A DNA stretch of 64,000 bases, from positions 10,134,501 to 10,198,500 of the forward strand of contig NC_090780.1 in NCBI RefSeq assembly GCF_040054535.1. Reading direction: 5' to 3'. The DNA comes from Antennarius striatus (lineage: Eukaryota > Chordata > Actinopteri > Lophiiformes > Antennariidae). Each line of letters starts with the position of its first letter. Position 1 is the first letter of the stretch. The notes beneath the pieces are model-generated. The model saw only the letters and a list, made by a program, of their open reading frames with translations. It searched no databases and was not told the DNA's origin. Below, in pieces: positions 5,527 through 63,231 of this stretch. The position numbers were made by a program, and so were the translations under genes.

Positions 5527-5908
5527 ACTCACACATTGACGGACTGGGGAGACGGACGGAGCGTACGCTAGTTTGAGCAGACCAAGCATATTTCAAGCGC
5601 GCATTAGGAGTGCGTTAAACCGCAGGAGCGCAAAAAAACAACACGGTCTCCGGTGATTGTACGTTGGATAAATCCGAGTTTTGAGTCAGGCGTTGTCGAC
5701 TTTAATTGCCTCTTGCTTACAAGAACAGCCCAGTGAATCCAGCAGCCTTCACTTTTCTGAATGGACGCGCTGGGAAGCTTCTCCGGTGACATGGAAATGC
5801 GCGTTATTGAGCGTGTGGCCGGATGCTGAGGACGCTCGATCCGACAAGTCAGTTGGAGCTTTCATTTTAAGTTTAAAACCCAAACAAACACGTTTAATCG
5901 GTTACAAC

Positions 5909-34275
<28,367 letters not shown>

Positions 34276-37677: not shown

Positions 37678-40600
37678 ATGTACAGTTCGGGTATGAGCAG
37701 TATCACAGCAATGGCTCCTCTGTCTCCAGGGCTGGGCGGCAGCCCACCTCTGTCCTCCATGTCACCCAAGAAGACCACCTTCCAGCCTTCAGGATCTCCA
37801 ATAACAGGAAGATTCTCCCCATCACTTCCTAAGGGCTCCTCCCAACAGATGAAACAAGCATCCAGTCCCTTGAACTCTTCCACTCTGTCCATTATGACTT
37901 CTCCAAAACTCTGGCAGAAAGCATCCATCTCCAGACTGGCAGAAGAGTTTTTCTGGATCGGTGGCAGTGTGGTCGCACAACCAAAATGGAGGCTGGGGCA
38001 AATAGGTAAATTTGAAATGATTAAGTAAGAAAAAAATATGTATATATAATGTAGTATGAACTGCTTTTAAATATTCAACTGCAATATGTCAGCAGTCTGT
38101 TCATCAGGAAAACCTGCAGGCTACTGGATCCTATAGGGAGCATTTTTGAATATTTATTTGTCACTGGAAACACCAATGAGAGCCTAAAATGTTACCAATG
38201 ACAACCTCATCCATCTAAAGTTGGAATTTCAACACTACAGAATGGAGTTGCAGGGAAGCCTGTGAGTAGATAATGGGCATATGGACAGTAGACAATCCTT
38301 TGGGATTAGCTTGAATGATTGCGTCACATGTATCTGAGCTTCAGATTACAAACAATGGTCACCTGCTCTCAGTTCACAGAACAATCACAACCCTATCATG
38401 ACCTGGAAATTGCTGGAGCTACTGTTTCAGACCAACACACTGCAAACGCCTTTTGAAAGTCACAAGAAATGTCAGCCGAGGAAAGTCTCAAGTGATCCTT
38501 CTAAATCTCATAACTGAAGGATTGGCTTGTTGGACAAAGGTTATTTCAGGGTTGTATGTGTTCGTCGTCTCTTTGTTTGCCCCTTATCATTATCACATAC
38601 TGTACACGCATACTTAAGTCCTGGTGTGACGCAACCTATAATCTCATAAACAAGTGCTTTATGGTAAACCTCTACTTGCCTCAGCTGCTTCAGGGATCCT
38701 TTGCTGCTGTCATGATGTCTTCCTGCACTCAATCACAATACATGTGCAACTATTTCACATATTTTCTCAATAAAATATGTACTTTTGACAATAACACAAG
38801 TGTAGGCACCAACATGTGACATTTCACATACATTTAATACATTTAATGCGTGCTTTGTACAAGGCTGTCCCAGCGGTGCGGGTAAATAAATGGCTGGTGA
38901 TCCCTGCTCAGCTAATAGAAGGGGAAGCCACACAATGCTTAATAAATACCGTGTCCTCTTGCTGTTTTACAGTGGAGAGATGTATGTGCACCATGCAGAC
39001 TGGCACTCAGATGACCAAACTGAAAGGGAAGAAGAAAGGACTGGTTCGATTCTTCTACCTGGATGAACACAAATCGTGCATACGATGGCGGCCGTCACGG
39101 AAACACGACAGAGCCAAAAGTGAGCCATCGCCACATTTTAGTTTTCATAACTTATCAAACAGAGCAAGAGAGTAATAACTGTAACATTAGTCACCACCAA
39201 ACTAAATGACTTGTTCGAGTGAAGCTTTCACACAAGTTTGATGGTGAGTTTTTAAAGGCATTTAAATTCATGTGTGTTTTATTTGGTCTGTCTGATTCTT
39301 CTGTGTCTGTTACATCCGCTAGAGGTTATGGTTTACTGCTGTCTGCCTGTGTTTATAATAACTGGGCTATTTAAAGTGTTATTAATAAATTCATATTTTT
39401 TGTTTATTTGGAAATTATTATCTGGAATCAGATTTTAAAAAAAAAATCATTTACACATATTTTTTGCAAGATAGGGTCTCTTAGAGATGTGATGTAATGT
39501 GTTTAACTTCATGGATACAAAGCTTGGACAAAAACTATAAATCCCCCACACAAAGTCAGATCTGACTCCATATAATAGTCCAGACTGGATGATTCAGAAT
39601 GTAAAGAACAATCAGGCTCATGGATAATTCACTATTGTGAGATGAGTAATAATGATACAGGTTTATAACAAAGGTCAAACAACCGAAACTCTATTGATTC
39701 AGTCAGCTGTCATGTTTTCATGACTGACACATCTTCAGTGTTTACAGAGATCACACCATTATTGAAACATCTTTTTCCACCAATAACTATATCAGACTAA
39801 TGATAATTCCACCGAGGTAACAAATTCCTGTAGGTAGGGTTCCCTGATTATTTTATTTGCATTTACTATATTTCTTGATCCTGTTCCAGTAACTATAGAT
39901 TCCATCCACGAAGTCTGTGAGGGAAAAAGGTCGGAGATGTTCAGGCGGTATGCAGACAACCGCTTCGATCCAAACTGCTGCTTCAGTATTTACTATGGGG
40001 ATCGTGTGAAGTCCCTGGATCTGGTCTCTACAAATGCAGAAGAGGCCCGCACATGGATCACTGGGCTGAAGTATCTGATGGCCGGTATCAGTGATGAAGA
40101 CAGTCTAGCTCGGAGGCAGCGCACCCGTGACCAATATCCTTCATCTTGCTCCACTTGCACATTCACTTCATAATGACTCAATGAATACATTTGTAATGCT
40201 TTCTCTCATCACACCACTCGCCTTCAATGTGCTTTGCAACCTGTTTCTCACCCAGTGTGAGCTTGAATAGGCTGACATCTATGATTCAATTCCCTCCATC
40301 AGCTTCAAGTAAACTTTTTCATCACAACAACACAGAAGAAGTGAGCTAATGAGTATTCATAGTTTCTCCCTTAACTGCAGATTTACGTGGTTACAGCAAA
40401 CTTTTTCTGAGGCTGACAAGAATGGAGATGGTACCTTGAGCATGGGAGAGGTGCACCAGCTGCTCCACAAACTTAATGTGAATTTACCCAGGCAAAAAGT
40501 CAGGCAGATGTTTCAAGTAAGATTTAAATGGACAGAGATCAATTGTGCATGTTGTAATAGATTTACTCCGCATAAGAACAATGGACTTACCTTTGTATTT

Positions 40601-43600
40601 TTCTTTTTTAGTGTCTGCTAATTGGAAATGTGGCTTCTTAAGTTGTGGCTTCATTAAGTTGTGGCAAAATATATAAGAGTATATATAAAATTCACATTGT
40701 GTAGCACAACAGTACAACATGATTTAACTGCTGGAAAATTACGGAAGCCAATATTAACTATTGAGCCCTGCAGTCAGCAAATGAAATTAGCAACAACTCT
40801 GCTGTATGCATGCTAACAATGACAAAATCAACGTAGTGTAATACGGTATTTACCATGGTGCTCATTTTTATTTAATACATATGGATATTAACTTTTTTGA
40901 ATTAGCATAAAATTCAACCACAGCGCGGGCTGATGAGATTGTCATTGATATTGTGTCAAAAACCACTAGTTGTGTTTCTGAATAATATTTGAGACATTTG
41001 CTCAAAACCATAAAAGAAAGGCAAATAGTCTGCGAGAAAGGAATGTATTAAATAAATCTGAAGTTTGTGTTCAAACAGGAAGCAAAAAGAAAGATTTAGA
41101 AAAGTGTTTAAAGGTATAAAATCCTTGAGGCCTTTTCCTTTTGAGATCTGAAATACTTTCACTGAAAGAGGTGAATCATATAGTGGCACATACAGTATTT
41201 CCTTTCAAATCGCCCACACAGAGAGTAGGGCTCACATCTTGCTTCATTATGTTCAGGACGCAGACACTGATGAGAACCAGGGATCACTGGGCTTTGAAGA
41301 ATTCTGTTCATTCTACAAGATGATTTCCACACGCAGAGACCTCTACCTGATAATGATCTCCTACAGCAATCAGAAAGAAGTCATGGATCTTCACGACCTA
41401 GCTCGCTTTCTTGAAAATGAACAGAAGGTACAACAAACACATTCATACCAACCTTACTTTTTATTTACTTTACATGCACATTCACTGTATTTACATTTTG
41501 TATATATTTCTTTTTATAGCACAGTAGCTCTAATTTGTGGTGGAGTAGAAAACACTACACACATGTCTGTTTGTAACTTTAGCAAATTGATCTCATTGCA
41601 TATTGGGATTTTAAAAAGAAAAAATGGTTACAAAAATAAGCTTAACAAGTTTGAATGAATAGTTGTTTCCACATGAAGTGACTGCAGCTGTCCTGGGATC
41701 TGCTGATTAAAGAAGAAAAGGTGTACACCAGTTGAAGATATATAAGATCAGTAATAAGACAACTTCTATAATAATGTTTCCAGCACAGCTACATGTATAT
41801 TAAGACTTCAGCATTAGTCCATCTGTCCTATTCTGCATAGCTCGGTGCTGTTGTTGTGATAAAGCACAAGGAAATAGAAACTTATTTGTGGCTGGATATT
41901 TTTTTAAATGACAGTTTACAGTAAATGAATATTCAATACTGGATCAGTCTCAACCACAAGTTACTTTCAGAAAAGACTCATTTGTGAACAGGGTCTTTTA
42001 AAGGGAAAATAGTATTCCTATGTGAGGCCTATGGACAGATAAGTGAAATCAACAGAAAATCCATCTAGTGCGTCTTTAGTATCTGGGCTCATACCCTAAT
42101 CACAGGGTTTGGGGACAGATGATATCCAAGGATCTTCTGGCAACAGCAGTTATTTACTCACAAATAAAGACCCTCCCAAATAGCTTACTATAGATGTCGC
42201 TCGAGCATCAGCAACAAGGAATAATTCTTATCTGAATGAAGAGTCAACAACCGCAATGCCAGCTTTTCTTTACCGGAAATAATGTATGTTTCCACATGTT
42301 TTGTACTGGCAGGCTTTGATGAGATTTTGACTTCCCCGCTGCCTCCACCAATAGCACTTGTCTTCTGCATCAAGTAGCTTCTCAGTCTAAGTGGTTGAAC
42401 TGGTTGAGCTTGTGATTGGAGTTATTTGTATATCCAATCATTTGGATGAATTGTTTTATAGATCCTGCCGTTTCCCAAGCATTTTCCCAGGCTCACTTCC
42501 TGTTGGGTTCAATAATAGTCTTTGGTGTCTAATTTAGATCCTTGCTCCATCAGTAGAAAGGAAAGAATTTAGGACCAGAGAATAGAACTTTTGTACTGTT
42601 GTCAGTTTAATTTCAGACCTCTTATTTTCTGAAAGATGGTTAATATAAAAATATTGGATCAGCTAAACTTAAAAATGACATTTCAAAAAAAAAATTCTTC
42701 CAGATGCAGAATCTGACCAGAGAGCATCTGGTTGACATAGTGTCCAAGTTTGAGCCGTGTCCTGAGAACCTACAGCGTATGGTACTGGGTATTGACGGTA
42801 TGAGAAATTTGCTTAAAACTGTATTTAACCATCACATATACTGTATGTCTTAAACATCAGGTATCATTTGAAAAAGGAACAGCGTCAATATATTATATCA
42901 TGTCTTAGAAACTACATTTATATACCACCAATATGTAACAGCAAATATGTTTATACGGAAAATGTAATTAATTAACGGATTTGTAAGATGCTATTGACTA
43001 AGCATCACAATTTTATGTGTCTCGCTGGAGTTCACGAAGTCCAGTGTTTTTCCTTTTTCTTTAAACCAAAAAAAAAAAAAAAATCCACTTGCTTCCAGTT
43101 AATATCTTACGGTTATGCTTTGTAAAAAGTTTTGCAAGTTTCCACATATGTTAGCCAACAATATTTTCTTACTCTGCTGACAGAAAAAATATTTTGGTCA
43201 GAATCATGTTCCCTTTTGTAATGTCTGTTTGATCCAACGCTTTTTCAATTCAGGGTTTACAAACTTCATGAGAAGTCCTGCAGGAGACATCTTCAACCCT
43301 GACCACAATCAGGTGAACCAGGACATGACACAGCCTTTGAATCACTACTTCATTGCCACCTCACACAACACCTACTTGACAGGAGACCAACTTCTCTCTC
43401 AGTCAAGAGTAGAAATGTACGCTTATGTTCTCCAGGCAGGCTGCCGCTGTGTGGAGGGTAAGAGCCTGCAAGACCGGAACATCAACTGTGCATGGCAATT
43501 ACATGACACACAAAGTGAGTCACTCACTCATGGCACTGCTTCTCCTTTCTCAGTGGACTGCTGGGATGGTCCTGACGGGGAGCCCATTATTCATCACGGC

Positions 43601-46600
43601 TATACCCTGACATCCAAAATTCTCTTCAAAGATGTCATTGAAACAATAAACAAATATGCCTTTACCAAATCACAGTAAGTGTCTCTGGGTCCTGACAGTC
43701 AAACCATCCCACCTATGCATCATGCTTGCTCTGCGCAGACATAATCACATGTCACAATCCTCCTTCCAGGTACCCGGTGATCCTCTCCATAGAGAACCAC
43801 TGCACTGTGCCTCAGCAGAAGAAGATGGCCAGCTGTCTGAAAGAAGTGCTACAGGACAAACTGGATCTGTCCAATTTCAACATGCACGAGAGCAAGAGAC
43901 TGCCTTCCCCTGAGATCCTGAAAGGAAAAATTTTAGTCAAAGTAAAGTTGTTTTAAGAGGCTTGTGCTGCCAATTCTGGACTAAAACCACACAGCAAACA
44001 GCACACATCTCACATGGCTTTATAATAAGAATATAATATGTTGTGTTTGCTTTCCAGGGGAAAAAGCTGCCAGCAAACATTGATCCTGATGCGGAGGAGG
44101 GTGATGTGTCTGATGAAGACACCGGTGAAGAGGAAGAGGAAGAGGAGGATGATAACTCACAGGCAAATGATTGCATGGAGAGACACACAGATGGATATTA
44201 GATAAACTGTATTTATACATATCTATGCATTATTTTTGACTCTTGTAGGATGGCAGCAGTGTGGCCTTTGCTAATCGAACAAAGAAGAAGAAAAGATTTG
44301 GCAGGTCAATCATGAGGAGCTTCAAAAGAAAAGTAATCCACTTTTATTTCATCAGTCTAGTTTCATATTACCCCTGCATATGATGATTACCCCGCTATCA
44401 GAATAATCAACCTTCACTAAGTCTTGCTCTTTATTTAACCCAAACCTTAACCCTAACCCGATCCCAACTCTGCCAATTGGTGGAAGCATGGAGTCCATGC
44501 TTTCACTAACTTCACTGCATCAGGAAAGTTTTGCTATTTTTTTTGTGAATTTTTGAGAGAAAAAAACAGGAGTGTTCATAATATTATCCAGAAGGTTCAA
44601 CGGATTTATCAAAGAAACCAATTTTATAGACAAAGATAGAAGCTGCTCTCTATGGACTACATTTAGAGTGAATCACTACATTAATGAATAAAAACAGAGA
44701 CTGCTGAAATAAAATAGATATATTTACACCAGTCACAAACTCTGGTTTGAGATAAATAATTGATAAACAGTTCTGTGAAAATAGCTCTACAATATTTTCC
44801 CTAGATGCTTCTCTCATTACTACCCAAACTCTCTCTCCTTTTCCCTGTTTTTAAATCTACCTGAATGAATGAATCCATTTCAATGAAACAAGAAAAGAGC
44901 CAAGATGGATTTTCCTGCAATTTATTATGATTCAGTTCAGTTTATGCGATCTTAAAATATATGTTTTACAGTAGCAGTGTTTGTCTGATTTGGCAAGAGC
45001 AAAAAGTAAAGAAACATTAGTCCTTCACAAGCCAAACATATGTACAGTAAAAATAGCACCATGTTTGAGAAGCAACAGTGTTCCTATAAAACAGTTTTTC
45101 ACTGTCACAATTACTGGAAAGTAGGAGAAGCATGTATATAAAGTACATTCAGTGTACCTTCAACTAGTTTAGCATAGAAGCTCTTGTTAAACATTAGAGG
45201 CATACATCTCAGGCTAAATGTTGAACCTTGAACAACTACAAAATCCACAAAATAAAATCTCATCTTTATGAAGAGTGAGTGGTAAGTTGTTGGACCCTTG
45301 TTAAAGCTGGACAAACTTATACATGACATGGCTGAAGAGGATGGAAAAAGAATTAATATTTACAATTTTAATGTGTAAATGTGAAAGAATCTGCTCTTTT
45401 TTCAGAGGAAAAAAAGAGTAAGAGTGAAAAATAAGGCGGCATCTGATGGCGAGTCTGATCACAGCAGCAGCAGGGAAAGGACGCAAATCATTTACCATCC
45501 TAAGTAAGGCTGCTGTTTGAGTTATATACTAGTAGATCAATGTAGTGCTCTTAGGTTCAGCTGCTATATGTCCGATCCTGTTCCCTCAGAAAGAGGAAGA
45601 CCATGAGGCTGTCCAGAGCTCTGTCAGACCTGGTCAAATACACAAAATCTGTCCGTGTGCATGAAATAGAAACACAAGGTAAGGAGTCTGTCACATTTTA
45701 AAGTACCAATGAATCTTTCATCTTGAATGGAAGCTTGATGCTGTTTCTACTGTCGGGTAGCTTTTACAAACAGTTGGCAGGTCTCATCCCTCAACGAGAC
45801 GGTTATGAACCAGATCTTGCAGCTGAAGCCTGCCGAGCTGGTTCGCTTCAACCAGCGGCAGCTTCTCAGAGTCTATCCATCCAATTTCAGAGTGGACTCC
45901 AGCAACTTCAACCCACAACCATACTGGAATACAGGATGCCATATGGGTAACACTTATGGAGATGTGAAAGACTGCTTGAGTACAATGTTTAGTATCCTTG
46001 CAGCTCATTATTCCTGTATGTGTGTTGATATTTCTCCCCAGTGGCCATGAATTACCAAACAGAGGGTCGTATGCTGGAGCTGAACCGAGCCAAGTTCTCA
46101 ACCAATGGAAACTGTGGATATATTCTGAAGCCAAAGTGCTTGCGTAAAGGTGAGTGTATTTGCAGATTGTTCTCAGTGAATGGAAACTGTCCATATGTGA
46201 GACATTGGTCAGTTATGTCGGATTGTCTCAGGTGCCTTTAACCCTATGTCGGAGGATCCTCTACCAGGACACAGAAAGACTCAGGTAGTGTTGAAGATCA
46301 TCAGTGGACAGCAGCTTCCCAAACCCAAAGACTCCATGTTTGGGGACAGAGGAGAGGTGAGGCAAATACACTGCAGTTATGATCTAATATTTATGCACCT
46401 GATAAAACTTTTAATAAGTTTCATCACTTAAATACTATTATTTTCATGTTTTTGTACACCCAGATTATCGATCCCTTTGTTGAAGTAGAGATAATAGGTC
46501 TACCTGGTGATTGTTCCAAGCAGCAGACCAGAGTGGTGGATGACAATGGTAAGTACAAAAAACAAACAAAAACACACAAACATTGCAATACAGATAATTA

Positions 46601-48634
46601 TAATAAACATGTAATTGTCTTTAATTTTATTCAGGGTTCAACCCAATGTGGGAGGAGACCCTTGTTTTTAACATTCAGATGCCGCAGATCGCTCTGGTGC
46701 GCTTTCAAGTGTGGGATCACGATCCTATTGGACGAGATTTTATTGGACAGAGAACAATAGCTTTCACCAGTATAATGCCAGGTAGATGACATGATATGTA
46801 AAGTCATGTTACATTACATGACATGTGTGTGCCTTAATGAAAGATGCTCACCGATGAAGAAATGATAGGAGCTCGTGATGGGAGAAAAAATGTGAACAAA
46901 ATGTGGGATAGATGTTTTATTTGCTTACTTTCAGGGAGTTTGGTGAGATAATATTACTCTCACATCTGTTTGATAAACCGGCCTAGAGCATTGTTTAGTC
47001 CAGCCTGAGTTATTTGCTATAGCTTTGCAAAAACACAACTGCTTACAACTGCTCATGTTGAGAATTAATGAATGTGACTAAATACAGACAAGCAATAGAA
47101 TATACTGTATATGTTTCCCAGAATGTCAAATTATCCCTTCAACATGAACTATTCAGGTTACCTTGAAATTTTTCTGAAAAACGTGTAGGTTATCGGCATG
47201 TCTACCTGGAGGGGATGGCAGAGTCTTCCATTTTTGTTCATGTTGCCATCAACGATGTAACAGGAAAGGTAAGTTACTCTAAATAAACTGACACACACTG
47301 ATTTTCACTTCAACTTAAATCTTAAATCCTTTGGTGCTTTTTACTAAACAGATCAAACCCACCAATGCAGTTCAAGCAGCCAGGAAACACATCCAAAAAG
47401 CAGCCCAGAAGCACATGAAGAGTCAACAAAGGCAGGCCTCTCTGGACTTCTCTGTCCTGTCGTCAGAAGATGGTCGTGCTCCATACCTCCGTAAGGATCT
47501 GGATGCCATATCTCTGGACAGCAAGAATGGTGAAATGTTCCCTGTGGTGCAAGGACCCACATCAAAGGCTGCCATCCATAAAGGGGCAATGAGCGAGCCA
47601 GTGAGGCGAGCTCACAGAGTTAAAATTTATGAACCACCAGAGAAATTGAGAGGGATCTTCAGCCGGATGTCTTCCACTGACTCCAACCACATGAGGGCTT
47701 CTCCCTGGGTGAAAGCAGATAGCTTTGACCTTGAGACCTCTCCACAGGCTTCTTGTCTTGATAGTCCTGCCCCCAACAGCCCGAATCCAATTAAAGAGGA
47801 GTTAGAAAATGAATACGATGAATCAACAGACTCAAACTGTCCTGAACAAGAGGCAGGTCAGACTTTTGGACCAGAGCTACCTGGCCAATCTAAGGAATTA
47901 TCAGAAGAACAACAACCAGATGAATCTGATCAACCACCAAAACCTCACACTGATTCAGTCTGTCAGTCTCAGCCCATGTCACATCATTTACTCCAGCCAG
48001 AAGCCAAATCCTCTCCACTCATCCCTCCATCATCTCCTGCAAAGGTGAGACGGACCTTAGAGGCTCCAGCTTATCCCCGACTATCAGCACCGGAACAAAC
48101 AAAAGCCCGGTCACAAAGTTGCCCTCGAAAACCAGCTACCGCTCCTCACACGCCAAATCCCATACTCCGCTGGAAGACGGGACAAGCACATCACTTCGGC
48201 AGCTACGGCTTCCACACAAGACCCACACAGAACGGCCTCTGCCTGTCTGACAGCACATCCAGCAGCAGCGACATGAGCTCTGACAGTCTGGAGCTCATAC
48301 CCTCCTGTGTGCCAGCTGGGGCAGAACATCTCGACGGAACTCTGCAACGGGAAATGAAGGCACTTTTTGACCAAAAGATGAGAGAGATTCGCTGTAAGTC
48401 ACCGCTCTTTCTAAAAGGTGAGTCATCGATAATCTTTGATTCCAGTTTGCAAAAAAATATAAATGCATAAAGTAAGCAGCGGTATGACGTGTTGAATTGA
48501 TTTTATTGTTTTCTTTTGTTTTAGATTAGAATACAGTTTAGACTTATAACTCCAAAAAACAACAACATCCTTTAGAAGAAGAGGAGGAGGAACTGCTCAA
48601 TCAAAACAGGGATGTGCAGGAGGAAGAGGAATGA
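37678..48634 (+). CDS. plch2: Phospholipase C eta-2 (PLC-eta2)
   Basis: Twenty-one exons give 1280 residues: 37678-38005, 38973-39119, 39890-40133, 40387-40516, 41257-41427, 42704-42797, 43254-43457, 43554-43674, 43770-43941, 44058-44162, 44249-44332, 45406-45503, 45590-45678, 45761-45946, 46042-46149, 46232-46356, 46464-46548, 46635-46781, 47189-47268, 47352-48417, 48576-48634. The enzyme hydrolyses PIP2 to IP3 and diacylglycerol. Order: N-terminal region with WIGGSVV; PH (about 110-235); EF hands, with loop [12 protein letters not shown] at 250-261; catalytic X (about 395-540); acidic/basic linker; Y (about 645-760); C2 (about 770-905); long Ser/Pro tail. Active-site residues are all present: His409-Asn410 (TSHNTYL), Glu439, Asp441 (VDCWDG), His454 (HHGYTLTSK), Glu488 (SIENH). 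The N-terminal WIGGSVV and the [16 protein letters not shown] segment favour eta-2 over eta-1. Intron 3 is AT-AC and intron 10 GC-AG. The start is the first ATG of exon 1 and is less certain than the rest. Confidence 0.95.
40134..40386 (+). other. plch2: U12-type AT-AC intron 3 of plch2
   Basis: The exon ends ...CGT GAC CA and the intron starts ATATCCTT (40134-40141), the exact U12 5' splice-site consensus. The intron ends ...GATTTAC at 40386 (AC terminus) with TCCCTTAAC at 40367-40375, one base from the U12 branch consensus TTCCTTAAC; the branch adenosine is about 12 bases from the 3' end. Splicing gives ...RTRDQ/WLQQTF, matching the PLC-eta reading RTRDQWL. No GT-AG alternative keeps this protein join, and the exon 3 frame hits a stop after reading into the intron. 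Confidence 0.9.
44163..44248 (+). other. plch2: GC-AG intron 10 of plch2
   Basis: The exon ends ...AACTCACAG and the intron begins GCAAAT, a GC donor with a consensus CAG before it; the acceptor is cttgtag. Use of this donor joins two phase-0 exons in the X-Y linker. The nearest GT alternative (gtgaag at about 44134) would bring a stop in the next exon. Confidence 0.75.
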
Positions 48635-49112: not shown

Positions 49113-52100
49113 TTATGGTTTTTCTTTGTCTACATTTTCCTCAGATTTGTTTCTTTTGTTGGTCCTCAGTCGTAGACTCAGTTCTTCTTTGAACGCCATC
49201 CAGCAGGATTTCTGTGGCAAAGACATAGAAATATAAGCTATAGTTCATGATACACAGGAGTTTATGATTAAAATGACTTTATTGTAAACTTCATTGTGTG
49301 GGTGACTAATTGTGTTGTGTGAGCCTTACCCAGCACCCTCCGGACCTACAGTTTTAAATTGTACTGACACAATGAAATGCTTCGGTTTTGTCTTCCCCCT
49401 CACAAAACGGATGTGACTTGTAAATGTATTTGTGCACATACCCTCTGCTCAACGGCAGTCCTACGGCTCTTAGAGGTGAGCTCCAGGACAGACAGCAGTG
49501 CTCCCAGTCCCAGACCAAGAGATAGAAGCAGAAACATCCCCTTGAGGCTGTGCGGTTGCACAGATAAAGACTTGGACTTGTTTGTAGTGCAGCTGCTGGC
49601 CCACCACTTGCTTCGCAGGTAGGCCAGCTCTCCTGCCTCACTCAGTTGTAGTATGGCGATACTGAGGTTCTTTATGAGGGATGAGCCTTGAGAAAATGAA
49701 TAGGTTTATTGTAACCACCATTTGAAATGTCATTTTTTAAATGAGTTTCATAATGAGAAGCCTCACCGAGGGCAGCAGCAATGCTGTATCCCCTCATACC
49801 AACAACTTCATGCGACCTGACTAGTTCACAATGATGTGCTACTGCCAAGTCCAAAGATACTGACTCTCCAATGAAAGCAAAGTTCCCCTCTTTGGCACGC
49901 TGAACCCCTTCGTCCATAGATGACACGAAACTCTTTGTTCTCTCCATGTGTTCATGGATTCTGCGATACACTGGATTATTTGAGTTCTGAATGAAAGAAC
50001 AGAATTAGAGAGAAAGCAAAGAGATGTCCAATCCCTAACTGGCCCAATGTCTGTACCTTAAAGAAGGCGAGGGTGGATGAACCAGCCATACAACCATACT
50101 GAATCACATCCTGATTTGCCAAGTCATCAAACCCTTTCACTGTCAGGTGGGAGTCAGGTGTCTTGGAGGAGCTGAGGTTGGAGAAATAATGAGCCAGGAG
50201 GACGATGGTAAATAACCACCAACTGCAGCCAATGATTCGTCCTGAAAGAGCTTTGGGATGAGGGCCAGCACCTGACAACACAAAAAGAAAAATGTTACAG
50301 AGAAATTCCAGAAGAGACACAAATCAATCATTTGTTCAGCCCGGAGTCTTTTCTGTCTGTTGGCATGCAGAGTGTCTGGTGTTGCTGGTTACCTTGAAGA
50401 GTCAGGCCTCCAGCTGTGTACCACAGACTGTGGAGGAAGCTAAATCTGTTCTGTTCACTCTGGGGATGACTCCACTCATATGGGCTCAGTCTGGATTTGC
50501 AAATAATATTAATTTCTAACGTTACCACACATTTGAAAGGGAACTACAAGCAATATCCACAGACCAGTTGTATCAATACATATTATAAGACATAGTGCGT
50601 CAACAAAGATGAATAAATCACAATTATAGCTTTTAATAATGTGGAACTTTTTGCATCACCAACCTGGCAACGGCAAACAAGCAAGCAGCCGTACCCAAAT
50701 AGGCAATGGCTGTGCAGACCCACGTTTTGGCTGTGAAGGGGTTCAGGAAATCAAATAAGGCAGCTTCCTCTGAGAAATCCTTCCTCAGCAGGATGCTGAT
50801 GCCTGTCTGCATGAAGGGTTTGCTCATCGCCACCACTTTCTCCCGAGATGCAGTGAGAGTGAGAGGAGCAATAGCAAGGTCTGCCTCCTGTAGCAGGGCA
50901 GGAACAAAGGATTTCAAGAAACTTAAATTAGACACACACGTGATTATAATGTTCACAACACTCATCTGAATGCACCGGTTGTGAGTCACAGATGCCAGCT
51001 GGGTGATTCAAGCTTCTGCAGAAGGGTTTGCTGCCCTCTGACCCCTCCAAATGTCAGCTTTCATGTACTCACACTTCTCACCACCTCTCCAATCATCCCG
51101 TTCCAGTTCCCACTCTCATCCTGTCGGCCGTATGAACCATCTCTCACCAGCTGCACTTTGTAATTGAATCCCAGTTTCTTTGCTAATTCAGACAGCAGGT
51201 CCATACAAAAGCCCTCCAGCTCTTTGCCTTTGGACATTGTATAAGGTGATTGCTAAAAGGAAACATGTCAAATGATAAACAGTGTTATTATTAAGCAAGA
51301 ATTTTGGAATGCACTTAAAAATTAAATTTAAGTACCTGTATTGTTGTAATTCTCAGCTCTGTGTGCGCTGAGGTTGAGGGGAAAAAGAATAAAAGTGCTT
51401 ATTGAATCGGACGCACATGTGCATTTGACTGTGTCCATAAAAACTGGAGACTTGAAAGATTTAAAGTGGATTAAATCAGTAGTTTCATCATCACAAAGGA
51501 ATCTTAATAAATGATGTGGATAATAACAAAGCAACTATTTTTGGTTAAGATTAACCACTATTCTCACAGTTCATGTCCAGCCTAAATTTACTAGAATCCA
51601 AGATCTGTGTGTACAGAGAGTCCAAGGGGAATCCTTGATTGCATATATTGACATTTGGCAACAGCTGTTTTCCGGTATCCTACAGATCTGGAATAGTTTG
51701 CACTCCACAGTATACAGTACTTAGCACAATGATTTAATTCATAAACTATCAATTCCATGGCACTGTGAGATGTGAGGGCAGTCAAACACTCATTTCAGGC
51801 CAAGGCCTTGGGGATTCCTCACCACAGGGTGATCCTTGCAACCATCAGAGCCTTCTTTTAAAACGATCTGATGTATGCAAGCCCCTGCCACTTTTTGGCC
51901 ACTCTGAAACACAAGGCTTTTGTTTGATTCATGACTCTTTTTGTGAGTGTGTGAACTAGCTGGTTTCTTTTTCTGTACTGCCTGTTCTGGACAGGATGTG
52001 GTGTTTGATACTGATACAGTTTGATATTGATCCAAGCTGACTATTTATTTATTTATGGCTCAATAGATTTAATGAATTTCAAATCCCATAAAGAACACAA

Positions 52101-55291: not shown

Positions 55292-55360
55292 GGGGCTGGT
55301 GTAACTCCCATGCAGAGGGTGAGGAGGTGGGAATGTTACACAGCTGTTAGCAGACTCAAC

Positions 55361-58300
55361 ATGGGTCGGGGTCGAGGCAGAGGGAGAGGACGGAGCAGGG
55401 GGTCATCGGGCCAGTTACGGCCCCCCTCGCCTTACAGACTGCAGCTGTCTCCATCCAGGGAGACTTTGACTTACGCACAGGCGCAGAAAATAGTGGAAGT
55501 AGATTTAGATGGAAGACTCCATCGCATCAACATCACAGACACTCTGCCGGTGATCACAGAAGACGAGATGATGGCTCAGGATATCGTTGAATGCAACAGC
55601 AACAAGGAGAACAGCGAACAAATGCAGAGTAAAACCAGACTGTGGAGGAAACCTCCAAACTGTAAAAGTAGAAGAAGTGGCAAAAACACATCTTACCAGA
55701 ACCAACGTCCTGGTTCTGAGCAGCACACAGGATCCTCCCAGCACCCGTCCCACCAGAGCCCCCTGCCCGAGCCCACCTTTCGTGTGCTGAGTTCAGTTTG
55801 CCCCTCTGAGGCGCCTCCTCTCCCGGCGGCCTACTACTGCTACGTGGAGAAGTCGCTGGAGGAGCAGGACAGCGTGGCCGAGTACGACATGGACGAGGAG
55901 GACCTGGCCTGGCTGGAGATGGTGAACCAGAAGAGGGTGACTGACGGCCACGCCTCCGTGTCTCCGGACACGTTTGAACTTCTGATCGACCGCCTGGAGA
56001 GAGAATCCATCCTGGAGTCCCGCAGCCAGGCGCTGTCCCACAGCGCCGTGGACGAGGACGCGTTCTGCTGCGTTTGCCTCGACGACGAGTGTCTCAACAG
56101 TAACGTCATCCTCTTCTGTGACATCTGCAACCTGGCCGTCCACCAGGAGTGTTACGGCGTGCCCTACGTCCCCGAGGGCCAGTGGCTGTGCCGCTGCTGC
56201 CTGCAGTCCCCCTCCCGTCCTGTCGACTGTGTGCTCTGTCCCAACCGAGGAGGTGCCTTCAAACAGACCAGTGACGGGCGGTGGGCCCATGTTGTTTGTG
56301 CCATATGGATCCCGGAGGTGTGCTTCGCCAACACGGTGTTTTTGGAGCCTGTCGAGGGGGTCAAGAATATTCCCACTGCTCGCTGGAAGCTCACCTGCTA
56401 CCTCTGTAAGCAGAAAGGCAGAGGAGCGTCCATTCAGTGCCACAAAGCCAACTGTTACAGGGCCTTCCACGTCACCTGCGCCCAGAAGGCCGGCCTGTTC
56501 ATGAAGATAGACCCGGTGAGGGAGACGGGCGTGAACGGCACCACCTTCTCTGTGAAGAAGACCGCTTTTTGTGAGCATCATTCTCCGCTGGGTAGTCGAC
56601 GGGATGGGTCTGGAGACGAGTCAGTGGAGGGGAGGCTGGTGGGGGGGAGGGGTAACCGGGGTCAGAGGTCGTATACTCAGAGTCCTCCTCCTCCATCCAA
56701 CAAGAAGGCTCCCAAGGGGCAGAAGAAGAAGAATACGAAGGGCTCCGGGGGGTCGACGCGTCGTTCAGCTGTGCCTGTGCTGCTCGTGCCTCAGATCCCG
56801 TCTCACAGGTGTGTTTACAAGCTGTCAGGATTTAAACTGCCAGATGACCATATGGATTTAATGCTGTGTCTTCTGTCAAAGAAGGGGCTCAAGATCATCC
56901 GTCTAGGGATCAATAAGAAATATTGACCTCTTGTTTTTTGTATGCAGTGATGCTTTAATGGAGCTCACTGTTAGTTGTGTTAACAGGACCACAGTGTTGC
57001 CTCACAGGTATTAATATGAAACTTTCACATCTCCTCAGGCTAAACAAGATCTGTACAGGAGTTGAAGTCCAGAGGAAGAATCAGTTCATGCAGAGGCTTC
57101 ATAACTATTGGTTGTTAAAACGACAGTCAAGAAACGGGATGCCTTTAATACGCCGACTTCATTCACACCTGCAGAGCCACAAGACTGCAGAACAGGTGAG
57201 GACAAAGACCATGAATGCCAACTTGTTTTTGTGCTGTACTTGTTAAATGTTGTACAAGAAGCTATCAGATCAGTGAAAGTGGTCTAAATATCTGTAGTTT
57301 TACTTCTATTTTTTTTTTCAGTCAATCACAAAATAGCTGATGAAGTTGTACAGTTTTTACAACATGTGATTGTGCTCATTTTAGATTCGTTTAAAGCTAA
57401 TCTCAAGGTAATTGACTCATGTTACTGAATCGCTGTGGTGGAGCGTCCTAAATCATCAGAACCACACTTTTCAGTGATTGTTGTTCAGTCACTGAGACAA
57501 ACTGCTTCACACACACGCTTGTCTTCTCACACGTGGGAATCAAAACATACGCACAGGCCTCACTCTTAGTGAATCTGATTCACACAACGCTTCGCAGCTC
57601 TGTCACTGGTGTTAGAACTCAGACCACATCAGAGTGACTCGTAAACGTTCAGAATGTTTGGGTTATTCTCATTTATACTCGGTCAGAAACATTGATTGTT
57701 AGGCTTATCCACTACAGTGGATATTGATTATGTCATTTTGGAGGTTTGAAGGTTATTGTAGACTACAAGAAATGTGGATGTAGGGCAGCGCCAGAATTGA
57801 GTCTGTGATCCACTAGAGGACTTTCAGCATCGGTACACGAGGAACATGTGAATCATGTGAATAATAATACTTGTGTACCGTAGTAGTGTCAGAATGGCCA
57901 GCGTGTTTTAATTACCGCCACCCATCGCCTCATTGTGAGATTCATCCTTCACCACCCAACCAATAAAAATGTGCTCTTTTAAGTTTTCTTTGTCTTTCTC
58001 CCCCTACAGCGGTTGAAATATGTTTGCTAAATGTTTGATATTTGCTTTTGAAAAGTAGAACAGACTGATTATACCGAGGTATTTAATTTCTCTATACTGC
58101 AGCTTGTTTCCATAATTCTGATTGATGTGAAATCTTAATTGAAAACAGAATCTGTTATGCTTGTTTCTTTGCATTCAGAAGGAACCTGATGAGAAGCTCT
58201 GCGCTGCGAGAGAGGAGCTACGATACTGGCAGAAGTTAAGGCAAGACCTGGAAAGAGCCCGACTTTTGGTGGAACTTATCCGCAAGAGAGAGAGGCTAAA

Positions 58301-60116
58301 GAGAGAGCAGGTGTGTAAAAGAGGACACTGTGGTGATTTAATTTGCTTGACAGGCTTCTACCGGCATTGCATTCAGCTATTAACCATATGCTATACATTG
58401 AAGCGGTAATTAAGACCTTTGGGTCCCTGAATTCCCTGTTTTTCCTTTTCCTCCAGGTGAAAATTCAGCAGGCTGCTCTTGAACTGAAATTGACGCCTGC
58501 ATTGGTGCTTTTACGATCCACCTTGGACCAACTGCAAGAGAAGGACACAGCAAAGATCTTCTCTCAGCCAGTCAATCTGTCAGAGGTAGGCGCTGATACA
58601 AAACAGTTTGAATTAATGCAGTTTTAATCCGGTTTCTGCTTTGCTTTGGCTTTTCTTGGAATCATCTAAGTCTTCTTTTCATGACTTACCTAGGTCCCAG
58701 ATTACCTGGAGTTCATTTCCCAACCCATGGACTTCTCTACGATGCGAACCAAACTGGAGGGACACGCTTACTGCTCCATCGCAGACCTGGAGAAGGACTT
58801 CAACCTCGTCATCTCCAACTGTCTCAAGTATAATTCCAAGGACACCATGTTTCACAAGGCAGCCTTACAGCTGAGGGAGGTGGGTGGAGCGGTTCTCCGT
58901 CACGCCCACAGGCAGTCCCAGAGCATCGGCCTTGACCCCAGCACCGGCATGCATCTCCCAGATGCTCTGAACAAACAGGGATTCTACCACTGCACATGGG
59001 ATGATGGTGAGTGGGGAACGGGGACTAGCCGTTTCTTGGAGAACATAACCCCCACATCTCAGTTACTGATTCGCCTTTTTCCTTTGTTGCTTCTCTTCTC
59101 GTGCTCCACACAGTTGACTCTCTCTTGGACCCAGACAACAGACTCCACCTAACCACTGATGAACAGCTAAAGACCTTACTGGACAAACTGGACATGGTGA
59201 CATCCATGCGTACCAGCGGTGGCCGAACTAAACGCATCAGGCTGCTGCGCCGAGAAATCAACGCTCTCAGACAAAAGATGAATCACCAGCAGCACAGCTC
59301 TCATTCTGTGAACGGTAATGACAAGGAGGGTGACGGAAAAGAAAGGGGAAAGGTGGAAAAGGAGGAGCAGGAAAGAAGTGAGAAGGAAAAGAGAAATGAA
59401 AAAACAGGTGTTGACAACAGACCTTCAGCAGCGGTGTCCAACTCTGGGACAGGTAAGACCTTCTTCTGTTTGAGATTGAATTATGTGTTTCAAAGTTATT
59501 TAACCGTTACTTCTATTGGACTTCTATTTGATCCAGATGACTCTCCACCTGTGCTCGAACTAAGCTGCCCGGTGTCATCACCACTCCCAGGAGATGCTCC
59601 TCTGGAGCCCCCAGTCCTGGGCATTGTAACCGGTGGACGACGGTCACCTGGACGGTCCTACAAGCGTCAGAGAACGTCCCGCAGTGGAAGCAAAAGTCAA
59701 GGTGAAGATGAGGCTGAAGTTGGTGAAACGCCGTCGTCACAACCAGAAGCTGTTCATGAAGTCACTCCGCTGGGAACGCCCCCCACCCCGCCTCTGGTTG
59801 GAGTTGGTCGTCGTACGTCTGTTTTATTTAAGAAGGCTAAAAATGGGGCGCGGATGGCAAAAAACAGGTCCCCTCCTCGCCAGAACGGGAAAGCATCTGA
59901 CGATAAAACAAACGGGTTGGAGAGGACCCCCGCCAGACCAAATTCACCCAGTGTGACCAACATCACCACCTTACCCCCTACGCCCAGCGCTTCCCCTACG
60001 CCTCAGTCTCCATCCTCTCACCACCTGAGGTCCAGAGGCCACAGCTCAGAGAGTGAAGCCGAAAAACTCCCTCCACCGCCGAGAGACAGTGAGCATATAA
60101 TAGATTACTATATGTA

Positions 60117-61138: not shown

Positions 61139-63231
61139 CACAATCCTGAGAACACTCCCCCAGTGGTGTGGACATATTCTAAGGTGACAGTGCCTCGATT
61201 CACTGGGCTCAAATTGTGAAGGGGGATGACATCCACATTTCTTTTGTGGATCGGCTGCCATAAACTCTGACCCTCGACCCCGATGATACTATTTGTGATG
61301 AGCTGGGGACTTTAGGCTTCATCGGTTCCAGATCTTGGCAAAAAAATGAATACAACTCTGGATGGAAATAAATGTTACGACATTGCGTAAGCTGATCAAA
61401 ATTATACCCATCAAATCGATGCTAGAGTGAATGTGTTCCATGATCAAAGTTAAAGGCAGTATTGCGTTTTTTATATTCTTTATTGATCACTAGAGGGGAT
61501 TGGAAATGTGGGGGGAGATGGTGGAGCGATGGGTGCTAATGCAGCAGTCAGGGGAACCTCACAGTGCCCTTGAGCAACGTACTATCCTAAGTGGAGTACG
61601 TTTTTAAAAAATGGATTAGTATGTGATCACATTCTGTTTTGTTTTAGCCCAGAACTTTCCCTGGCGGGTTAGATTAAAGTCTAGCCTCAAATACCGGTAA
61701 CCCCATACTCGTGCAGATTCTCATTCTTCCAGGTCTGGAGTTCCAGCAAACTAAGATGCATTTTTCTAATCGCAGCCTCCTGTACATTTCCAGCTGAGAC
61801 AGCCTCACAGAAGGTTTAAATACCTGAACTCCACACCAGTCAGTCAGAACTGAACAAGCCTTAAATTTTTCTGCCTTGAATAAAGTTGCACCAGGATGGC
61901 CGAGTGGTTCAGGCGTTGGTCTTAAGATCCAGTGGATATTTGTCCACGTGGGTTGGAACCCCACCCCTGGTAAAGTCTGGGGCAGCTCATTCCAGCTTTA
62001 ATTATAAACAGTGTGGGTGGTGCACTGTGGCTTTTTCGGGGCGGCAGTGGCTCAGTTGGTAGAGCGACTCGTCCAACGATGTCCATTTGACGGTTCGGTT
62101 ACCGCTCCCACCCGGTCAATCGGAATGTGAGCTGACAGAGAGAGGTGTCAGATTATGCTAACGGTGTGATCTGCAGTGAGCTAACAATTTACCTACAGGG
62201 ATTAATAAAGTATAATCTATTCTATTCTAGAGTCGCATCTGCTTCAACCTCACAATTTACTGCACTTAACTTAAAAGTGACTTGCTTCTCTTGTTTTTCT
62301 GATTTCTTTTAATTTAAGTGTCTCCCCACCTAAAAGAAGTCGTGGTAAACCTGCACTGGTTAAAGTTCCCAGCAGTGACAATGGAGACATCTCTGGTGGG
62401 TACGGTCACAAAGCAAACAAAATCCAGTGAAATACTTGTACTTTTGTTCATTGAGTTTGGTGAACAGTGTAACGTTATGCACCATTTTGGAAGCGATACA
62501 GTTTAATTGTCATTTTGAGATTGAAAAGCATCATGAACATAAATTAATTAGATGTGCTGGAATATTTTATTCACAGGAAAGTCGACACTTCTCTCTGTGG
62601 ATTGTGAGACCAAGCTCGCACCGCTGGACCTGGTTTGGGCCAAATGCAGAGGATATCCATCGTACCCAGCAATGGTGAGGATTTGTTTAATCGGTGATGA
62701 TCACAGATTAAACATGGTGATGTGATGGATCAAAATCAGAGAAGCTGATCATAGACAAGACTGATAACTTTGCCAACTCTCAACATTTATGGTTGCAGAT
62801 TGTGGACCCGGACATGCCCCAGGAAGGGCTTCTTCATAACGGCATCCCCATTCCAGTGCCTCCTGTGGAGGTGCTCAAACTGGGCGAGGTGAGGGAAACT
62901 GAAGAAGGCGAAAAGCTCTTCTTAGTTCTCTTCTTTGACACCAAAAGAACTTGGTAAGATTCAGACAGGCAGACTACACCTGGTGCTGATTGTGGAAACA
63001 AATAGTAGTCGTCATAGTTACGTTGAAATCGTCTCCTTTGGTTTTAGGCAATGGCTGCCACGGAACAAACTGCTGCCTCTAGGGAAGGATGACACTGTGG
63101 ACAAACTGCGCTTAATGGAAGGCAAGAAACCCAGTGTTCGCAAGTCTGTCCACACTGCGTACGACCGGGCAATGTTACACCTAAACCACGTGAGAGGAAA
63201 TCTAAACTTCACTCCCTCCAACTTCATATGA
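55361..63231 (+). CDS. brpf3: Bromodomain and PHD finger-containing protein 3 (BRPF3)
   Basis: Twelve coding exons: 55361-56808 (exon from 55292), 57039-57195, 58179-58310, 58457-58585, 58694-59006, 59114-59452, 59537-60088, 60257-60332, 62319-62395, 62577-62674, 62799-62953, 63048-63231. They give 1219 residues (human about 1205). BRPF3 is a nuclear scaffold that joins HBO1/MOZ-family acetyltransferases to ING and MEAF6 and guides H3 acetylation. The conserved N-terminal region has [21 protein letters not shown]-type sequence; PHD1 starts at about 235 ([23 protein letters not shown]), then a zinc knuckle and the extended PHD ([15 protein letters not shown]). The bromodomain spans about 605-705 with acetyl-lysine-reading Asn669 (CLKYN). 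[16 protein letters not shown] is a BRPF3 signature. The C-terminal PWWP domain (about 1095-1200) includes [14 protein letters not shown] and [13 protein letters not shown]. The start at 55361 (aacATGg, then [10 protein letters not shown]) has better context than the in-frame ATG at 55310, which would add 17 residues. BRPF1 is excluded because its N-terminal zinc finger is absent. Confidence 0.95.
57196..58178 (+). other. brpf3: brpf3 intron after coding exon 2
   Basis: About 1 kb, AT-rich, bounded by gtgagg and gcattcag. No gene or clear repeat is seen in it. Confidence 0.7.
60119..60193. repeat. (CT)n(GT)n compound microsatellite
   Basis: A short CT run passes into about 31 GT units, starting some 30 bases after the brpf3 exon 7 donor and ending about 63 bases before the exon 8 acceptor. 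It therefore fills much of a 168-base intron. Confidence 0.95.
61077..61135. repeat. (CA)n microsatellite
   Basis: Perfect CA tract of about 29 units in a brpf3 intron. Confidence 0.95.
61890..61972 (+). tRNA. tRNA-Leu(TAA)-like sequence, probably a decayed copy
   Basis: An 83-base unit starting ACCAGGATGGCCGAGTGG and ending CCCCTGGTA has the layout of a type II tRNA-Leu, with anticodon loop CTTAAGA (anticodon TAA at 61923-61925), a long variable arm and a good A box (TGGCCGAGTGG, 61897-61907). Several defects suggest a pseudogene: the B box/T loop reads GGTTGGAACCC instead of GGTTCGA, which breaks the invariant TTC; the last acceptor-stem pair is A-C; the innermost anticodon-stem pair is T-T; and no run of four Ts follows closely. 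It lies in a brpf3 intron on the same strand. Confidence 0.6.
62040..62229 (+). repeat. tRNA-derived SINE-like unit
   Basis: The 5' part has an A box (TGGCTCAGTTGG, 62048-62059) and a degenerate B box (GGTTCGGTTAC, 62092-62102) at tRNA spacing. After a tRNA-unrelated body the unit ends with 'gggattaataaagta' and a TCTAT/TCTATT tail. This is the arrangement of fish tRNA-derived SINEs. The exact family is not known to me. Confidence 0.6.

Follow-up and report, generated by a model that had tools for sequence, protein, structure and literature searches.

Evidence for a U12-type AT-AC intron at the PH/EF-hand junction of a probable plch2 gene in Antennarius striatus

In the 64,000 nucleotides of Antennarius striatus DNA analyzed here (hereafter, the window), a phospholipase C gene is interrupted by an intron that starts with AT and ends with AC. 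This raises the question of whether the intron belongs to the minor, U12-type class and whether its splicing might limit how much of the full enzyme is made. Judging from motifs and homology, we consider it very probable (about 95%) that positions 40134-40386 represent a minor (U12-type) intron with AT-AC ends, located in an eta-type phospholipase C gene that is most probably plch2. The features that bear on this reading are compiled in Table 1.

Table 1. Features at the AT-AC intron and its flanking exons (positions refer to the window)
Feature	Position	Strand	Basis or remark
Upstream exon (end of PH domain, linker)	39890..40133	+	Open frame, PLC-gamma homology through the junction, Pfam PH_12
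Predicted plch2 U12-type AT-AC intron, 253 nt	40134..40386	+	Motifs, homology, splice-pair enumeration, shuffles
5' splice site ATATCCTT, 8/8 U12 consensus	40134..40141	+	Motif scoring
In-frame TAA upon intron retention	40171..40173	+	Reading-frame translation
Branch element TCCCTTAAC, 8/9 vs TTCCTTRAC	40367..40375	+	Motif scoring
CTGCAG, possible competing AG acceptor (AG 40379-40380)	40375..40380	+	6 nt from branch A; Phe-Thr insertion in frame
Terminal AC of the intron	40385..40386	+	Sequence reading, frame-consistent
Exon 3' of the intron, first EF hand	40387..40516	+	Pfam EF-hand_7 and EF-hand_1, PLC-delta1 alignment

Gene identity and intron borders

The deduced protein showed Pfam matches to PH_12 (residues 100-211), EF-hand_7 (229-293), EF-hand_like, and PI-PLC-X (385-516) in this order, i.e. 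a PH domain, EF hands, and PI-PLC-X in sequence. Together with its PDB matches, these domains place the gene in the phospholipase C family. None of the 23 PDB sequences matching at E ≤ 1e-20 is named eta, the best of them being delta1. The tentative assignment to eta-2, and with it the name plch2 that we assume here, derives from the human PLCH2 sequence and from a SKI-family neighbor. We read the locus as a phospholipase C gene of the vertebrate eta type, most probably plch2. The presence of a SKI-family gene beside PLCH2 would fit the human 1p36 neighborhood.

Several other genes were recognized in the window. A TMEM51 homologue exon (Pfam TMEM51) lies at 1841-2317 on the plus strand, followed by the first open frame of the SKI-family gene (5672-6859, plus strand), with Pfam matches to Ski_Sno_DHD and the c-SKI Smad4-binding domain. 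Coiled-coil-like frames at about 33233-34275 (plus strand) resemble, by eye, the 3' part of this SKI-family gene; the one piece of these frames that was scanned, 33233-33643, gave no Pfam match. Further along, an ionotropic glutamate-receptor-like gene is located on the minus strand at about 49976-51004 (Pfam Lig_chan and Lig_chan-Glu_bd), and a gene with EPL1, PHD-finger, and bromodomain matches at 55292-59149 on the plus strand, which we take to be BRPF-like from this set of domains. Two additional frames, at 62721-63228, had no Pfam match. A tRNA-Leu (TAA) was identified at 61890-61972 (plus strand) by ARAGORN, and Rfam likewise gave a tRNA match (41.9 bits).

At the borders of the intron, the DNA reads ...CGCACCCGTGACCA/ATATCCTTCATC......TTTCTCCCTTAACTGCAGATTTAC/GTGGTTACAGCAAACT..., where the slashes mark 40133/40134 and 40386/40387. 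The upstream exon ends in CA and a CAG codon is split as CA/G, so that the intron is in phase 2. This split cannot slide, since CA is followed by A rather than G and GTGG is preceded by C rather than A. Taking donors from 40060-40210 and acceptors from 40290-40420, we enumerated all GT-AG, GC-AG, AT-AC, AT-AG, and GT-AC pairs and obtained 112 stop-free in-frame pairs (35 AT-AG, 26 GC-AG, 26 AT-AC, 19 GT-AC, and 6 GT-AG). The pair 40134/40386 is the only one of them that yields RTRDQ/WLQQTF with no residue lost or gained. Aligned with PLC-gamma, the joined protein is ungapped at the junction in all three alignments among the matches listed, and with PLC-delta1 there is a one-residue gap three residues ahead of the aligned Trp. 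The borders are thus fixed by homology, independently of the splice motifs. A preceding sequence-only reading had proposed the same borders and had placed the intron between the PH domain and the first EF hand. Both proposals hold, as the former correspond to the sole pair leaving the protein unchanged and the junction falls at Q229/W230, beyond PH_12 and right where the EF-hand_7 match begins.

U12-type signals and their chance expectation

The U12 branch consensus is TTCCTTRAC, from which TCCCTTAAC departs at a single position. The branch A is 40374 (or 40373), which lies 12 (or 13) nt before the intron end; taking the second A of the element gives 12 nt. The four motif claims of the sequence-only reading, namely a perfect U12 donor, a branch element departing by one base, a branch-to-end spacing of about 12 bases, and an AC terminus, were all borne out: ATATCCTT occupies the first bases of the intron and scores 8/8, the branch element and its spacing are as just described, and the AC agrees with the reading frame. 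A spacing of 12 nt is within the optimum of 11-13 nt that is reported for U12 introns (PMC3584512).

We compared the intron with its siblings in the same gene, using the 15 plch2 introns that were modeled from homology (eight at 38006-43769 and seven at 45679-47351); plch2 introns before 38006, between 43770 and 45678, and after 47351 fall outside this comparison. The remaining 14 are all GT-AG introns, with donor scores of 2-5/8 against the U12 consensus and 6-9/9 against the U2 consensus (one of the nine U2 positions being free), compared to 8/8 and 3/9, respectively, for the AT-AC intron. Among the introns modeled, 40134-40386 is, by these scores, the only one of the U12 type. A U12 branch match of 7/9 was present in two of the 14 siblings (at 11 nt in intron i2 and at 22 nt in intron j6), which, together with the one departing position, renders the branch match weak by itself. 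U12-type introns are characterized by the lack of a distinct polypyrimidine tract; the pyrimidine fraction at -20 to -4 was not distinctive (0.65 vs 0.41-0.88 in the siblings) and does not tell the two classes apart in this gene.

Taken alone, the motifs are no evidence. The window contains two copies of ATATCCTT, against an expectation of 2.01, and 9 near matches to TTCCTTAAC, which is below the 17.8 expected. A donor followed within 3 kb by a branch element with no more than one mismatch and by a matching end was found once in the window; such a combination also appeared at least once in 35 of 60 dinucleotide shuffles (mean 0.88, largest 4), i.e. at the level of noise. The picture is different when the search is anchored at the ends defined by homology: when the intron was shuffled 20,000 times by mononucleotide, both elements, with at most one mismatch each, were present in a single case. 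In these shuffles the separate rates were 0.00175 and 0.0067, with a product of ~1.2e-5, and the probability of the exact donor alone at the anchored end is ~6.5e-5. Two other sites in the window were considered as further U12 introns and rejected. For the second ATATCCTT, at 11598, the following 3 kb contain no branch element with one mismatch or fewer that has an AC 9-16 nt past its branch A. The other site, GTATCCTT at 45992, is internal to one of the GT-AG introns of plch2.

According to the established scheme for minor introns, U11 and U12 recognize donor and branch jointly, and U6atac then replaces U11. In plch2, U11 and U12 would recognize ATATCCTT and TCCCTTAAC together, U6atac would displace U11 from the donor, and the 3' splice site would be the AC located 12 nt past the branch A. 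Splicing would then join RTRDQ to WLQQTF, thereby connecting the PH domain with the EF hands and the catalytic core. Given the perfect donor, the near-perfect branch element, and the 12-nt spacing, removal by the minor spliceosome is much the likeliest reading of the sequence, and removal is presumably constitutive.

Alternative readings

The sequence-only reading suggested that minor-spliceosome efficiency could limit production of the full enzyme. An explanation of this kind, which is compatible with a U12-type intron, regards it as a regulatory brake, by which tissue- or stage-dependent minor splicing would set the level of the full enzyme. We consider this possible, although rather unlikely. 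In its favor, a retained intron would add 12 intron codons and then an early stop, ahead of the EF hands and the catalytic domains. In addition, PMC3584512 describes U12-type introns as 3- to 5-fold slower in vitro and at least 2-fold slower co-transcriptionally, with a proposed rate-limiting role, and PMC8280824 describes AT-AC sites as outcompeted by GT-AG minor sites and AT-AN introns as dependent on CENATAC. However, these rate and competition effects are properties of the class, none of them being specific to plch2, and a pan-eukaryotic survey (PMC10639083) favors neutral processes over a selected role.

A second alternative concerns the 3' end. The intron might terminate at the CAG at 40380, giving an AT-AG U12 intron (40134/40380), or use both ends as a tandem acceptor, with Phe-Thr added between PH domain and EF hand. 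The CTGCAG acceptor is in frame and is preceded by a pyrimidine fraction of 0.8. Since the PLC homologues align poorly right before the Trp, homology alone is compatible with such an insertion and does not decide against it. The position of this CAG only 6 nt from the branch A, compared to the optimum of 11-13 nt, and the description of AT-AG terminus combinations as disfavored, both according to PMC3584512, argue against it. With the AC end, moreover, the protein aligns to the PLC-gamma chains among the matches listed without any insertion. We therefore regard an AG end, alone or in tandem, as very improbable. Slightly less credible still is a combined reading, in which a slow AT-AC intron would have been kept to gate PLC-eta2 output and a tandem CAG/AC end would give rise to a second in-frame isoform, with two extra residues in the PH-EF hinge, when minor splicing falters.

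Major AT-AC introns do exist (85 "major AT-AC introns or related subtypes" are counted in PMC8280824), but a U2-type intron at this place, be it with GT-AG borders or of the AT-AC kind, has hardly any chance of being correct. Scored as U2 donors, the 14 GT dinucleotides at 40000-40259 reach 6/9 at most, and the AT donor reaches only 3/9. All six in-frame GT-AG pairs share the donor 40071, with which the upstream exon would lose its last 21 residues.

Relation to known minor introns and implications

The intron thus best read as U12-type shares with vertebrate U12-type AT-AC introns the donor, the branch element, the 12-nt spacing, and the AT-AC termini. As is typical of the class, it is a single minor intron among major ones in the modeled part of the gene. 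Apart from one mismatch in the branch element, we found no departure from the class. The sequence-only reading called AT-AC introns a small minority even among U12 introns, which is fair, if mild: according to Table 2 of PMC7367187, they account for 26% of U12 introns in human, 22% in zebrafish, and 12% in both pufferfish species. The phospholipase C family, to which plch2 belongs, has already been reported as rich in minor introns, with 60% of its genes given as minor-intron genes in PMC6865273. Gene names beginning with "PLC" do not occur in the main text of that paper, nor do "phospholipase" or "PLC" in the main texts of PMC7367187, PMC6717393, and PMC8280824. Our searches of the open literature gave four papers that pair phospholipase C with "minor intron" but none that does so for PLCH1 or PLCH2; PLCH2 and U12 appeared together only in a TRPM7 paper and PLCH1 and U12 only in a microgravity paper, both on other subjects by title. 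Phospholipase C and U12-dependent co-occur as terms in PMC2603472 and PMC7544984. A pattern scan for relatives of the PH exon returned 13 matches in viral_contigs and 93 in genome_contigs, with none confirmed; as these collections consist of viral and prokaryote sequence, the scan is uninformative on vertebrates.

Vertebrate U12-type AT-AC introns are cataloged in U12DB, IAOD, and MIDB, and it is quite possible that the plch2 intron already has an entry in one of them. Overall, it is a well-supported, ordinary, textbook member of a well-known class. It also provides a clean illustration of how gene finders that assume GT-AG ends misread genes with AT-AC introns, since the full protein is not obtained from any of the GT-AG pairs in the range enumerated. 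Should plch2 indeed be limited by minor splicing, PLC-eta signaling would join the processes that are sensitive to minor-spliceosome disease.
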